This document shows, in pieces, positions 46,658-51,285 of a stretch of 54,425 bases of DNA (position 1 is the stretch's first letter; the number at the start of each line of letters is the position of its first letter). The translations under genes and the position numbers were made by a program. This stretch comes from Akkermansia muciniphila (GTDB lineage Bacteria > Verrucomicrobiota > Verrucomicrobiia > Verrucomicrobiales > Akkermansiaceae). The notes beneath the pieces are model-generated. The model was not told the DNA's origin, made no database searches, and saw only the letters and a list, made by a program, of their open reading frames with translations. The DNA lies in assembly GCA_945874895.1 (NCBI GenBank), contig CAMCIC010000020.1, positions 1 through 54,425 on the forward strand, read 5' to 3'.

Positions 46658-47125
46658 TCAAGGCCTGCGAGGAATCAATCCCGCCTGAGAGAGCGACTTC
46701 CATCCACCATGCAAAGCCTTAACGTCGGGAACCAGTTGATATTCGCGCAAACGTTGGGCGATCTCGCGACTCGTGCCACACCCCACATCCCCACAATACA
46801 CGACCACCCGCTTGTTCTTCTCTGCCAACACGGGGAATGCCTGCTCAAGAAGTCGATCAAAACTTTCACCCTGCGCCGTGGTCAGAAGCAATGACCCAGG
46901 CAATCCGTCTTTCTCCCAATCCACCCTGCGTCTGGCATCGATCCAAATGCAATCATTCTTCCAATCCTCGATGACCGTATGCAGACAAACTTCATCTGCG
47001 GCCAAAAGGGTCGGGTCACAAGCAACCACGGAAGTGACGATAGGATCGAAAAGACGTGTGCCCAAAGCGCCCATCCATGACACCCCTAGAATCAAGATCA
47101 ATTGTTGCCATCCATGCTTGAACAT
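46658..47125 (-). CDS. Rhodanese-domain membrane-anchored protein
   Basis: The 155 residues begin with a hydrophobic segment (about 8-24, signal anchor), followed by a rhodanese domain: 'CIWIDARRRVDWEKDGLPGSLLL', the active-site loop 'VVVYCGDVGCGTSREIAQRL' with the likely catalytic Cys in YCGDVGCGTS, and the final 'ALHGGWKSLSQAGL'. The hydrophobic start puts the domain outside the cytoplasm. It is the last gene of the sigma-factor operon, 20 nt after the DUF1573 gene. Sulfur-transfer or redox-sensing in the periplasm is inferred. Confidence 0.85.
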   Translation of the reverse strand: MFKHGWQQLILILGVSWMGALGTRLFDPIVTSVVACDPTLLAADEVCLHTVIEDWKNDCIWIDARRRVDWEKDGLPGSLLLTTAQGESFDRLLEQAFPVLAEKNKRVVVYCGDVGCGTSREIAQRLREYQLVPDVKALHGGWKSLSQAGLIPRRP

Positions 47126-47145
47126 ACAGCGTGTGGATCAGAACA

Positions 47146-47874
47146 TCACTCGGGTTGACCTCGCGGAGCGGGCTCCATCCGAGGTGTGCTGCTTGCCACT
47201 GGCAAATCGGGTCGGACGAGAACAAAAGCCAGCTGTTTTTTTTGTTTCTCAATGCTGCAGTCTGTCTCAATATGAACCACTGCCATGCCGGGAGTGACAT
47301 CAGGTTTCATCAACGGCTTGATTGTCAGCTCGTAGTCCTTTCCTTTCTCCATCGTTTTCCATTCCAACTCAAAACAAGGATGATTCATGGTAACGCGCAC
47401 GATCTCGATGGGCTCCGTATGATTCATATGAATCTTCATTACCTTGGCGTCCCAAGGTCCCTTCCCTTGCCATTCGAGAGTTCTTGGCTGGATCTCCACA
47501 AGGGTTGGTATGATAACATGCACCACCAAAGTGTGTGAGGGAGCCGACTCCTTGTCGCCCGCCAGCCACAAAACCACATTTTTGTTCACCTCGCCGATGA
47601 AATTCTGCATGTCGAAGTTGGCTCTCAGCACGCCTTTTTCCCCTGGACCAAATTCCAGTTTACCGTCTTGGAGCAACTCTACCGACATGCAGGAGCAAGT
47701 CGCTTTGTAGCGCTCGATTTTGATGACCTCTTTGCCTTTGTTTTCGAAGGCAAAATCACAAAAAATTTTGGTGGCATCAGGCGGAGCGTGGATGTCTTTT
47801 TTTTGCGAATCAAATACCAACTCCGCATTCAACAAAGCGGTCATGGCGAGGAAGAGGCATACGATTGATTTCAT
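47146..47874 (-). CDS. Exported DUF1573 protein
   Basis: The 242 residues start with a signal peptide (MKSIVCLFLAMTALLNA) and carry the DUF1573 immunoglobulin-like pattern: 'FCDFAFENKGKEVIKIERYKATCSCMSVEL' with the CSC cysteine motif, followed by 'FGPGEKGVLRANFDMQNFIGEVNKNVVL'. The second half looks like another Ig-like fold. DUF1573 proteins are periplasmic and their role is not known. It overlaps the upstream gene by 4 nt. Confidence 0.85.
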   Translation of the reverse strand: MKSIVCLFLAMTALLNAELVFDSQKKDIHAPPDATKIFCDFAFENKGKEVIKIERYKATCSCMSVELLQDGKLEFGPGEKGVLRANFDMQNFIGEVNKNVVLWLAGDKESAPSHTLVVHVIIPTLVEIQPRTLEWQGKGPWDAKVMKIHMNHTEPIEIVRVTMNHPCFELEWKTMEKGKDYELTIKPLMKPDVTPGMAVVHIETDCSIEKQKKQLAFVLVRPDLPVASSTPRMEPAPRGQPE

Positions 47875-48380
47875 GGAGCGGGAGAGAGTATCGGTTTTTC
47901 ATAAGGCGAGAGCGAGATGATCACGATCATCCGTCCCTGACGCCATTCAGGACCCAAGACATACATCGGATTACCCGCAGTCAAAGCGGCACCTGTCTTG
48001 AGAATTTTCTTTTGATTTAGCCACAACTCCATGTCCAGACGAGTCAATTCTTTGGACGGGCGGGCCTCCGCTTCAAAACGCACAAGGATGTCATCGGAAG
48101 CGGAAATCGGTTTGGCCCAGTTTTCGTAACTGCGGAACAAGGGCTTGGTATCGACGCCCAATTCGCGATAGTTTGCAAACTTCAATCGCGGATCTTTCAT
48201 CAATCGCTGCGATGTCGCCTCATCGAGCCGCTTGAATTTGGCCAAGCTGTCATCCTGTTGACCCGCACATGCGTGGATGAGAGTGACGGTGACAGAACCA
48301 ATGATGTCACGCCCCCGTTCGGCAAATGCGGATCCGGAAGGAACCAACACAAGGATGAGGATGACGAGGAAACGAACCAT
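47871..48380 (-). CDS. Exported hypothetical protein in ECF operon
   Basis: The 169 residues start at ATG 48380 with a signal peptide (MVRFLVILILVLVPSGSAFA). A longer in-frame reading that reaches 48605 would overlap the anti-sigma gene and gives an Arg/Ser-rich artefact. The mature part has 'GSVTVTLIHACAGQQDDS', 'LFRSYENWAKPISASDDIL' and 'LWLNQKKILKTGAALTAGNPMYVLGPEWRQGRMIVIISLSPYE', probably all-beta. No family is recognised. Overlap of 4 nt with DUF1573 and a gap of 13 nt to the anti-sigma gene place it in the operon. Confidence 0.7.
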   Translation of the reverse strand: MVRFLVILILVLVPSGSAFAERGRDIIGSVTVTLIHACAGQQDDSLAKFKRLDEATSQRLMKDPRLKFANYRELGVDTKPLFRSYENWAKPISASDDILVRFEAEARPSKELTRLDMELWLNQKKILKTGAALTAGNPMYVLGPEWRQGRMIVIISLSPYEKPILSPAP

Positions 48381-48393
48381 GAACGTAAAAAAA

Positions 48394-48963
48394 CTAGGGA
48401 GTGATGAGAGTTGCTTCCTTCTTCTGCGTCTCAGCGCCATGGTGTGAGTCCGTAGTCGACACCGAAGAAGTGGCATCCTGTGCAAATTCGTCGGGCAGCG
48501 CTTCGACACCGTTAAGAACGATGACGGTGCCCTCGGCAGGACTGGTTTCAAAAAACTCCGCTTTGACGCCCTGCTCTGGCGTGTAGGTGACGAGGGTTTT
48601 GGCACGATGCATGCGGTGATGCCAATGGTTGCCGCCCCAAAAGCCCAGCACCATCGCAGCCGCGATGCTCAGCGGAAGAATCCACTTGCTGGGCAGGACC
48701 ACGGTTGTGCGGGATGCTTGGATCGAGGAAGCAGAGGTGGCAATCGAGTGAAAGAGACGGGCTTGGAAAAACTCTCCTTGAGGAATCTCGCTGGAGTGCG
48801 ACATGATTTGAGGGAGATGACTTCTCCATCTGCGGGATGACTCACGCTTTTCCCACCAAAGGGGATGATTGGATGCCCATAGATCTACCAGAGCTTGCTC
48901 TTCCGCCGCAAGCTCATCCTCCAGCCAAAGCAACAGGGTATGATCATCGGGATTCGTATTCAT
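48394..48963 (-). CDS. Putative membrane anti-sigma factor
   Basis: The 189-residue protein has an N-terminal cytoplasmic helical part ('DHTLLLWLEDELAAEEQALVDLW') that looks like the sigma-binding domain of an anti-sigma factor, a membrane helix (about 94-110), and a periplasmic tail of about 75 residues. The HxxxCxxC zinc motif is absent. It overlaps the sigma gene by 20 nt. Function is inferred from this position and topology. Confidence 0.7.
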   Translation of the reverse strand: MNTNPDDHTLLLWLEDELAAEEQALVDLWASNHPLWWEKRESSRRWRSHLPQIMSHSSEIPQGEFFQARLFHSIATSASSIQASRTTVVLPSKWILPLSIAAAMVLGFWGGNHWHHRMHRAKTLVTYTPEQGVKAEFFETSPAEGTVIVLNGVEALPDEFAQDATSSVSTTDSHHGAETQKKEATLITP

Positions 48964-49609
48964 CTCTCAGCAATGTTTGTAGTTTTTGGCGGGCGTAGAA
49001 CAGGCGACTCATCACGGTCCCTATGGTGCAGCCCATGACATCGGCGATTTCCTTGTAAGCCATTCCTTGGACATCCTTGAGGATCACGATTTCCCTGTGT
49101 TCCGGAGAAATCTTCGACAAAGCCGCTTCAATTTTCGCCTTCAGCTCCCCCATTTCCATCTTTTGATCTGGACTATCACCCACATGAGGGATAGCCACGG
49201 CGGATGGATCAATCCGCTCGTTGTCAAAAAGATCATCACGCAACTCACCCGCCATTTCGTGTTTGCGTTTGCGGCTCCAATCATAGACGACGTTGTGTGC
49301 AATGCGATAGAGCCAAGTAGTGAACTTCGCCTTCGATTCGAAATGCACGAGAGCGTTCCACGCCTTAATGAAAACATCCTGGGTCAAATCCCAAGCGTCA
49401 GCTTCGTGATGTGTCATGTTGCGAATCATGGCAAAAATCCGGTTGCGGTGACGGATCACCAACTGATCGTATGCTTTCAAGTCGCCCGCCTGAGAACGAG
49501 CCACAAGTTCAGCATCGGCAGTCTCCTCAGCACCCTGACCGCCCCAAGGTGGTTCCAAATGCATAGGCCCCTGCGTGCCATAAGACGAATGAAGGCGCCA
49601 TTTATTCAT
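48944..49609 (-). CDS. ECF RNA polymerase sigma factor
   Basis: The 221 residues contain sigma region 2 ('LVARSQAGDLKAYDQLVIRHRNRIFAMI', 'DAWDLTQDVFIKAWNAL', 'FTTWLYRIAHNVVYDWSRKR') and region 4 ('ALSKISPEHREIVILKDVQGMAYKEIADVMGCTIGTVMSRLFYARQKL'). I start at ATG 49609 (MNKWRLH); ATG 49564 is also possible, and 24 residues reachable further upstream are not sigma-like. It leads a five-gene operon with the anti-sigma and three exported proteins, and is divergent from the pseudokinase-FGE gene. Confidence 0.93.
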   Translation of the reverse strand: MNKWRLHSSYGTQGPMHLEPPWGGQGAEETADAELVARSQAGDLKAYDQLVIRHRNRIFAMIRNMTHHEADAWDLTQDVFIKAWNALVHFESKAKFTTWLYRIAHNVVYDWSRKRKHEMAGELRDDLFDNERIDPSAVAIPHVGDSPDQKMEMGELKAKIEAALSKISPEHREIVILKDVQGMAYKEIADVMGCTIGTVMSRLFYARQKLQTLLRDEYESR

Positions 49610-49803
49610 GAATTTTGCAAAAAATCCGTAACTGGATGCGTTGGCAAGAAGGTAACATTCCGCACGCTCATGGCAATGCAAGATTTCCGCATCGAAAGTC
49701 CGGCTTTCTGAAAGCTACCACCAAGTCACAATCAAATGGGTGGATGTGCATTTTACTCTTTCCGATCGAACGGTTTTGCGGCATCTTTTCATCCGAGAGA
49801 CTT

Positions 49804-51285
49804 ATGTCATTTGAACCACCGAGCGATTACCAGCTGAGCCAACTTTTGGGAGTAAATCCAAAAACGAACATCTGGCTCGCGGAACAGCTCTCTGTTCGTC
49901 GCAACGTTGTTTTGGAACAACTGCTTGACCTCGATAGCGAGCATCGCGAGGACTTCCTCGCATCGGTCCGAGCGAAGGCAAGCATCGATCACCCGTTGAT
50001 TGCTTCGGTCTATGAAGCGATCAATGACGACGCGCATTGCTTCTTCACCCGCGAGTGGTTGCCAGGTGAGAATCTATCGGCTCTCGTGGAGCGTGGTGTC
50101 ACACTGAAACCGGCTCAACTTGCCCACATCATCAAACGCGTCGCCGAGGCCTGCATGCATCTTGAGGAACGGGGCACATCGACCGATGAACTGACATTGT
50201 CGCACGTCTATCTCAACGAACAACATGTCTTACGCTTATCGAATCTGGCCAAGTGGGGCAATCGTGAAGATCACAGGTCAGCCGATGACATGGCGGAAAT
50301 GGGAAGCCACTTGTTGCCGCTGATGGAACTGGGAGAATCCGGTTACACCCGTGTCCAAACTCTGTTGCATTGGATGACAGGCAAGGATCCGGAGCGCATC
50401 ATGCAATGGAAAAATGTCCGTCATTACGCAGACCAAATCGAACAGCAACTCGCCGCGCCGGTGGTTCCCATGCATCCTTCGAGCCAACCACAGCGGACCG
50501 CAGGGAAAAAAAACCAGAGGCAACTTGTGATTGTGGGTATCGTTGTCGCCATCATCGCCCTCGTTACGATGTTTTTTGTGTCGCAAAAACAAAAGCCTGA
50601 GAAAACAACGATCGCTCAGCTCGATGGCCCCATTCTCGTTCCAGAAGGCCTCTATCCTGGACCTGACGGCAATGAGAACAAGATTCGTGGCTTCTGGCTC
50701 GCCGCCCATGAAGTCACGATCGGAGAGTATCGTGAATTTCTCGAATCTCTCAAAGTTCTCGATATCGGACAACGCAAAATCTTCGATCACGAATCACAGC
50801 CGCTCACCAAGCTTCGTCACGAAACCGAGAATTGGACGGAAATCATCGCCGCTGCGGAAAACAATGGCATGTGGAAAAACCGTGTGCTGACCTTGAATAG
50901 TCCCGTGTTTGGTGTCGACTGGTGGGATGCTCATGCCTACTGCGAGTGGAAACGTGCACGACTGCCCACTCAAGAAGAATGGTATGCGGCAATGAGAATG
51001 AAGACCCATGATCCACGCTCTCTGATACCCGCGGCGTGGGGGGACGTGGTATCCCAAGACAAAAACGGTGCTGGATTTTTCGGCATGGCAGGCGGTGTGT
51101 CGGAATGGACACGTAAGCCCGCCAGCGATCCTTCCAACCCGCTGGGTGCCCGCTTATGGGTTCTCATTGGTGCATCCTTTGCCAAACCGACCAATGGCGC
51201 GCAAGCAAGAGAGTGGATCAATCATCGTGACCTTCGCCGTGACGACTTAGGTTTCCGCATCGCATACGATCACTTGCCGGAATGA
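49804..51285 (+). CDS. Pseudokinase - TM - FGE/SUMF1-like fusion protein
   Basis: The 493 residues form three parts. Residues about 10-215 are a Ser/Thr kinase fold ('YQLSQLLGVNPKTNIWLAEQ', 'ASIDHPLIASVYEAINDDAHCFFTREWLPGENLSALVE', 'QLAHIIKRVAEACMHLEERG') without the catalytic residues: the beta3 Lys is missing, HRDLKPxN is replaced by 'STDELTLSHVYLN', and DFG is replaced by LSN. A membrane helix lies at about 240-259. Residues about 275-493 are a formylglycine-generating-enzyme-like domain ('GFWLAAHEVTIGEYREFLESL', 'VDWWDAHAYCEWKRARLPTQEEW', 'DDLGFRIAYD') lacking the active-site Cys pair. Both halves thus appear non-catalytic: a signal-reading membrane protein is the likely role. ATG 49804 is the start; upstream in-frame codons are not kinase-like. 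It ends with a 16-nt overlap with ribD. Confidence 0.8.
   Translation: MSFEPPSDYQLSQLLGVNPKTNIWLAEQLSVRRNVVLEQLLDLDSEHREDFLASVRAKASIDHPLIASVYEAINDDAHCFFTREWLPGENLSALVERGVTLKPAQLAHIIKRVAEACMHLEERGTSTDELTLSHVYLNEQHVLRLSNLAKWGNREDHRSADDMAEMGSHLLPLMELGESGYTRVQTLLHWMTGKDPERIMQWKNVRHYADQIEQQLAAPVVPMHPSSQPQRTAGKKNQRQLVIVGIVVAIIALVTMFFVSQKQKPEKTTIAQLDGPILVPEGLYPGPDGNENKIRGFWLAAHEVTIGEYREFLESLKVLDIGQRKIFDHESQPLTKLRHETENWTEIIAAAENNGMWKNRVLTLNSPVFGVDWWDAHAYCEWKRARLPTQEEWYAAMRMKTHDPRSLIPAAWGDVVSQDKNGAGFFGMAGGVSEWTRKPASDPSNPLGARLWVLIGASFAKPTNGAQAREWINHRDLRRDDLGFRIAYDHLPE

Follow-up and report, generated by a model that had tools for sequence, protein, structure and literature searches.

The gene at 49804-51285 (+) of the window (the whole 54,425-nucleotide stretch of Akkermansia muciniphila DNA analysed here) encodes a 493-residue protein in which a degenerate kinase fold is connected by a single membrane helix to an FGE/SUMF1-fold domain that lacks the catalytic cysteines. 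We tentatively propose that this protein and its relatives in the order Verrucomicrobiales are non-catalytic transmembrane scaffolds or receptors that position or gate a periplasmic wall-remodelling module, a reading whose contacts, signalling direction and wall process we infer and to which we give slightly less than an even chance. The main parts of the gene are the following:

49804..51285 (+): whole gene, pseudokinase, membrane helix and Cys-less FGE-fold domain (translation; homologues over both domains)
49825..50454 (+): kinase-fold domain, residues 8-217, catalytically degenerate (Pfam; PknB fold match)
50518..50589 (+): single membrane helix, residues 239-262 (structure model; hydropathy and charge)
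50614..51279 (+): FGE/SUMF1-fold domain, residues 271-492, presumed periplasmic (Pfam, 3.4e-23; fold match)

The kinase fold, membrane helix and FGE fold claimed in a preliminary description of this DNA are all confirmed by Pfam, by an AlphaFold2 model and by fold matches. In the 493-residue protein, Pfam recognizes PK_Tyr_Ser-Thr (PF07714; 8.1e-6, 25.8 bits, above the cut-off of 23.1), Pkinase (PF00069; 5.5e-5, 23.1 bits, below the cut-off of 31.7) and FGE-sulfatase (3.4e-23). Structure models were built of two single chains, this protein and the product of a neighbouring gene, c1, described below. The model of the pseudokinase-FGE protein, built from a 68-row alignment, has a mean pLDDT of 90.2 and shows helix 239-262 separating two folded parts, the relative placement of which is unreliable given a pTM of 0.51. 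Structure prediction of both halves, which the preliminary description had suggested as a check, yielded a PknB-like N-terminal half and an EgtB/FGE-like C-terminal half. More specifically, residues 2-214 match the PknB kinase domain (6b2p; Z 20.2, rmsd 2.7, 207 aligned), with a bilobal kinase fold and a shortened C-lobe, and residues 271-490 match EgtB (4x8b; Z 20.8, rmsd 2.8, 209 aligned), human FGE (1y1h; Z 19.6, rmsd 2.9, 193 aligned) and the FGE paralogue (1y4j; Z 18.5, rmsd 2.6, 183 aligned). This architecture is not a chance association, since homologues cover both domains in 50 of the 57 genomes searched, the window's own included. The charge around the helix is more positive on the N-terminal side in 67/109 sequences and on the C-terminal side in 28/109, the two sides being equal in the rest; together with the receiver-like N-terminal domain of relatives (see below), this bias favours a cytosolic pseudokinase and a periplasmic FGE domain, as a tendency rather than a proof.

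The catalytic residues were counted in an alignment of 110 rows, 109 of them distinct (the window, 67 Akkermansiaceae-type loci, 21 order loci and 20 further loci); the Akkermansiaceae-type rows, here as in the structure alignment (A4), represent 67 of 80 loci, 13 being left out. The FGE columns Cys336 and Cys341, placed by means of the C336S and C341S entries and the alignments, correspond to window residues 461 and 466. The relevant sites are the following:

49915..49917 (+): Glu38, at the place of the ATP-binding Lys (VAIK) (alignment)
50182..50190 (+): Thr-Asp-Glu, residues 127-129, at the place of HRD (alignment)
50233..50247 (+): Ser-Asn-Leu, residues 146-148, at the place of DFG, inside a conserved R-x-x-N motif (alignment)
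51184..51201 (+): Lys461 and Ala466, at the places of the FGE catalytic cysteines (structural and sequence alignments)

The losses noted in the window protein recur throughout this alignment. The VAIK Lys is kept in 4/109 sequences, the HRD Asp in 4/109 and the DFG Asp in 5/109; no sequence retains all three or even two of these residues, 96/109 have none, and the Gly loop is not retained in the alignment. The DFG Gly is present in 0/109 sequences and the DFG Phe is replaced by Asn in 108/109, so that the DFG region reads as R-x-x-N, with Arg144 in 98/109 and Asn147 in 108/109; this amounts to a conserved new motif rather than a random loss. Likewise, neither FGE catalytic column contains a Cys in any of the 109 sequences. 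FGE-fold proteins devoid of catalytic cysteines are common in general, so that this loss is by itself unremarkable. The DWWDA motif of the FGE part is found in 91/109 sequences. Four order members (L042, L043, L046 and L047) keep the VAIK Lys and have lost HRD and DFG.

Purifying selection acts on both domains: in the five of ten close-relative pairs with estimable dS, dN/dS ranges from 0.07 to 0.32 in the kinase part and from 0.04 to 0.23 in the FGE part, and in all ten pairs dN is higher in the linker and helix region than in either domain. The loss of catalytic residues is old, and the view that one helix separates two non-catalytic-looking ends, both conserved in that state, has held up, the charges favouring the kinase inside. 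The protein has the fold of an active Hanks-type Ser/Thr kinase, with Glu, Glu and Ser in place of Lys, Asp and Asp, and the fold of a formylglycine-generating enzyme without its cysteine pair. With a kinase fold that has lost its motifs, a helix and purifying selection, it would, by sequence and model, qualify as a bacterial transmembrane pseudokinase, which is a kind of protein rather than one family.

The seven genomes of 57 that miss the gene are G012, G013, G014, G023, G025, G026 and G044, the last of which retains a 176-residue remnant. A search of 288 genomes of the phylum with profile A1 gave matches at 1e-30 in 87, its listing omitting 181 genomes without a match. By the listed ranges, a match spanning part of the kinase and extending into the FGE part is found in 38 genomes, of which 37 belong to the window's order and the last, G179, to a different order of the same class; the other matches are kinase-only or FGE-only, and inspection by eye of seven FGE-only proteins revealed no kinase part. 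Other classes of the phylum contain FGE-domain proteins of about 600 residues with a DWFDA motif and a non-kinase N-terminal part (L214-L218).

Most members from the other families of the order are longer (630-800 residues), their first 120 residues or so being receiver-like. A profile of this domain (A3, made from 18 of 20 N-terminal pieces) matches response-regulator receivers in the PDB at 1.7e-10 and 3.1e-10, and Pfam Response_reg is found in two of ten proteins at 2.8e-4 and 0.005, both below cut-off. By eye, the phospho-Asp column contains no Asp in the 18 rows (Glu in 6, Ser in 2, a gap in 10), an Asp lying one or two residues away in three of the gapped rows (L034, L035 and L036). The G179 protein, from outside the order, is a long form too, its profile match starting at position 9, in the receiver part; the long form is therefore probably ancestral, and the window's family probably lost the receiver-like domain.

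The conserved neighbour of the gene is c1, which encodes an unnamed protein. In 89 of the 105 distinct loci outside the genus with enough sequence, c1 immediately precedes the gene on the same strand, at a median spacing of a few tens of bases, with a 4-base overlap in 14 loci. The 16 outside loci without an adjacent c1 are mostly of the Roseibacillus type, with a dihydrolipoamide-dehydrogenase-like gene upstream, and none of the ten genus loci has c1 at this place. Note that neighbouring genes were taken as longest open frames and that antisense frames hide some of them, so that these adjacency counts are lower bounds. Downstream of the gene comes c2, a secreted-looking protein without any Pfam family above cut-off, in 37 of 87 loci, followed by an N-acetylmuramoyl-L-alanine amidase (Amidase_3, 5.9e-51) in 21 of 87; in five of these 87 loci an ATP synthase subunit gene is found downstream instead. 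The gene also lies beside c1 and c2 in complete genomes (2.7-3.5 Mb) of one genus of the window's family (L200-L202 and L208).

Sequence and model suggest that c1 starts with a helix, continues through a Pro-rich stretch and TPR helices, and ends in a beta domain, and its charges favour a periplasmic location (34/43 versus 2). A structure search with the c1 model returned TPR matches only, the match to LpoP (Z 13.4) being no better than common helical arrangements would give. c1 is retained in 53/57 genomes, among which are 49 of the 50 with the pseudokinase gene, and c2 in 57/57; in the sole gene-bearing genome without c1 (G016), the pseudokinase gene sits at the end of a contig. In the window's genome, c1 lies on contig C2 (171323-172408) beside a seryl-tRNA synthetase-like gene, and c2 (C12:7721-8575) directly precedes an Amidase_3 gene (C12:8735-9235): the ancestral set is dispersed over three contigs, yet kept. 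Conversely, c1 is directly followed by c2, the pseudokinase gene being missing, at L195, L196 and L197 (G014, G023 and G026), and only the remnant stands between c1 and c2 at L198 (G044), which implies that the module can do without the pseudokinase gene.

Longer proteins from other genomes also contain the C-terminal domain of c1, and five of the six strongest cases were examined. Four of them (L224, L225, L226 and L228) display Amidase_3 above cut-off, located after an N-terminal part and before the c1-like domain; Pfam gives no match in the fifth. Where the operon amidase has a DPGHGG-like motif, these four proteins have DP(A/S)GGG; they have thereby lost a His that we take to be a zinc ligand, and they may be pseudo-amidases. 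Since the c1 domain is fused to amidases and c1 is encoded upstream of an amidase gene, these observations point to peptidoglycan remodelling.

The mechanism we propose is the following: (i) the cytosolic pseudokinase, preceded by the receiver-like domain in most other families, would dock a cytosolic partner; (ii) the membrane helix would couple it to the periplasmic FGE-fold domain; (iii) the latter would dock, most likely, the membrane-anchored TPR/beta-domain protein c1, or else wall material; (iv) the resulting complex would position or gate the periplasmic module formed by c1, the secreted c2 and the N-acetylmuramoyl-L-alanine amidase; and (v) this amidase module would remodel the wall. 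The computed basis of this scaffold proposal comprises the folds, the lost residues, their conservation, the c1 operon, the retention of the dispersed genes and the c1-domain/amidase fusions. Against it stand the facts that c1 is not adjacent in 16/105 outside loci and 10/10 genus loci, that c2 comes next in only 37/87 loci and the amidase in only 21/87, with the ATP synthase subunit gene in five, that three genomes keep c1-c2 without the gene and a fourth with its remnant only, and that TPR folds are generic, as the LpoP match illustrates. A bolder version, which we consider doubtful, is that a receptor made of retired enzymes (pseudo-receiver, pseudokinase and Cys-less FGE) constitutes an order-wide inside-to-outside switch of the amidase module, with R-x-x-N as a new binding surface and with the c1 domain fused in places to His-less amidase-like proteins. 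If the link to the wall is true, the protein would regulate a peptidoglycan hydrolase from the inside out, in a group of bacteria for which few envelope regulators are known. An order-wide family whose operon partner is kept after dispersal makes it possible to test concretely what role a dead kinase plays on a membrane helix.

A receptor controlling a true kinase or another cytosolic enzyme through pseudokinase docking, independently of the wall, seems to us rather unlikely. Pseudokinases provide general precedents for such control and the genomes hold other kinases, e.g. a 905-residue frame on contig C8 of the window's genome (G000:C8), but no conserved kinase neighbour was found and the conserved operon partner, c1, is predicted to be periplasmic.

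Several known proteins share one part or another of this architecture. EgtB, OvoA/OvsA and SenA have an FGE-like domain (EgtB 4x8b, Z 20.8; NCBIfam SenA, 8.8e-12), but the NCBIfam scores of the window protein are far below the equivalog cut-offs (45 versus 420 for SenA), and Pfam, at E values up to 1, detects no DinB-type iron-binding domain ahead of the FGE domain. Human SUMF1/FGE (1y1h) and SUMF2/pFGE (1y4j) share the FGE fold, FGE having the Cys pair that the window protein lacks and SUMF2 having, to our knowledge, neither a kinase domain nor the helix architecture. GldK and GldJ are FGE-like, non-catalytic structural lipoproteins that, as far as we know, are devoid of a kinase fold; the window protein scores 34.5/350 and 18.9/458 bits against them in NCBIfam, below the curated cut-offs. 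The identification of the protein as a sulfoxide synthase or as a gliding-motility (GldK/GldJ) relative was rejected on these scores. MviN, a mycobacterial protein tied to wall synthesis, differs from the window protein by its domain order and the absence of an FGE domain. In the 2025 review PMC12599244, MviN (ActPs3 pseudokinase) is a membrane protein with a degenerate kinase domain, like the window protein, and EssB/YukC resembles it in being a non-catalytic scaffold with a cytosolic pseudokinase, a degraded Gly loop, three lost motifs and one membrane helix; EssB/YukC differs in belonging to the T7SSb of Firmicutes, and the review mentions no FGE domain. Transmembrane pseudokinase scaffolds are thus already known from this source, and so are kinase-FGE fusions from PMC3581485: Chlamydia Pkn1, compared here by description only, has an N-terminal kinase and a C-terminal FGE-sulfatase domain and, unlike the window protein, is taken as active since it is reported to phosphorylate IncG.

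The window protein could instead serve a secretion or surface machine as a structural hub, comparable to EssB/YukC (T7SSb) or GldK (T9SS ring), which we judge unlikely. EssB, with all three motifs, Gly loop and activation loop degraded, indeed scaffolds secretion (PMC12599244), and the window protein has a weak NCBIfam match to GldK (1.4e-8); nevertheless, the GldK score is 34.5 for a cut-off of 350 and no secretion genes were noticed among the recurrent neighbours that were annotated. With respect to novelty, we found no description of a pseudokinase-helix-FGE family in the open literature, subscription journals being mostly outside this coverage. A term search of the text of the Verrucomicrobium spinosum essential-genome paper (PMC12283558) gave no hit, and a text search of the 2025 review, which describes bacterial pseudokinases as largely unexplored experimentally, gave no mention of FGE/sulfatase/formylglycine, receiver, Verrucomicrob or Planctomyc (PMC12599244).

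In the window, the gene is divergent from an ECF sigma operon, as first described, with the following neighbours and upstream element:

48944..49609 (-): ECF sigma factor gene, divergent, start MNK set by genus relatives; regarded as a neighbour rather than a partner (Pfam)
48394..48963 (-): anti-sigma-like gene, a neighbour (weak NCBIfam match, 0.043, below cut-off)
49748..49760 (+): GCATTTTACTCTT, possible part of a promoter, weak; similar in most of the eight linked genus loci (by eye)

The operon continues at 46658-48605 (-) with genes for an unnamed protein, a DUF1573 protein and a rhodanese-like protein, in an order kept in most linked genus loci. A vWA_Ro60 identity for the anti-sigma-like protein was rejected, the Pfam match being below cut-off.

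The preliminary description had suggested that the gene may report an outside ligand to this sigma/anti-sigma pair, and had named co-occurrence of the architecture with ECF operons as a check. The co-occurrence is seen within the genus, where eight of ten loci have an ECF sigma gene within their flanks, directly divergent in three; it breaks down outside, where such a gene is found in only 3 of the 78 loci whose flanks extend 3.5 kb or more upstream and 3 kb or more downstream, and one of these is a weak match (1.8e-9). Moreover, two genus members are unlinked, and in five of the eight linked loci (L052-L056) two unrelated genes, ArsR-like and CoA-disulfide-reductase/rhodanese-like, both absent from the window, intervene between the sigma and the pseudokinase genes. 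Relatives of the anti-sigma protein are found in 39/57 genomes, many of them weak, and in the closed genome G027 the relative lies 1.76 Mb from the pseudokinase gene. An ATTGCCA-containing motif upstream of sigma is common to six of seven aligned genus loci, and no such motif was seen by eye upstream of the pseudokinase gene in the genus alignment; a scan of the window's own genome gave three matches versus two for the reversed control and is therefore uninformative beyond the sigma gene. Similarly, a scan for GCATTTTACTCTT gave one match in the window for 0.29 expected, and 28 of 100 shuffles have one. The conserved linkage expected of an ECF-coupled transmembrane sensor is thus not observed, and sensing on behalf of the divergent pair is, in our opinion, very unlikely. 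As relatives in the order usually adjoin likely cell-envelope genes, the sigma genes are probably chance neighbours and the link local, although a genus-specific connection to ECF may exist. The order-wide comparison thus corrects a plausible but local reading drawn from one adjacent operon.

Even less probable is that one end is still catalytic through unusual residues. The near invariance of R-x-x-N at the DFG place could be taken in this sense, and SelO and SidJ set a precedent on kinase folds (PMC12599244), but the Lys, HRD Asp and DFG Asp subsist in only 4, 4 and 5 of the 109 sequences and the Gly loop is lost. Finally, a decaying gene or an artefact, which the loss of the gene from several small genomes might evoke, can be dismissed, as it is contradicted by dN/dS values well below 1 in both domains of an open frame found order-wide. 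A diversity-generating retroelement target was also considered and rejected, the window's genome (97% complete) giving 0 RVT_1 matches. The 905-residue frame of this genome has its kinase-like match at G000:C8:14793-15140 (L002), and frames of about 900-950 residues matching it are present in several members of the genus.
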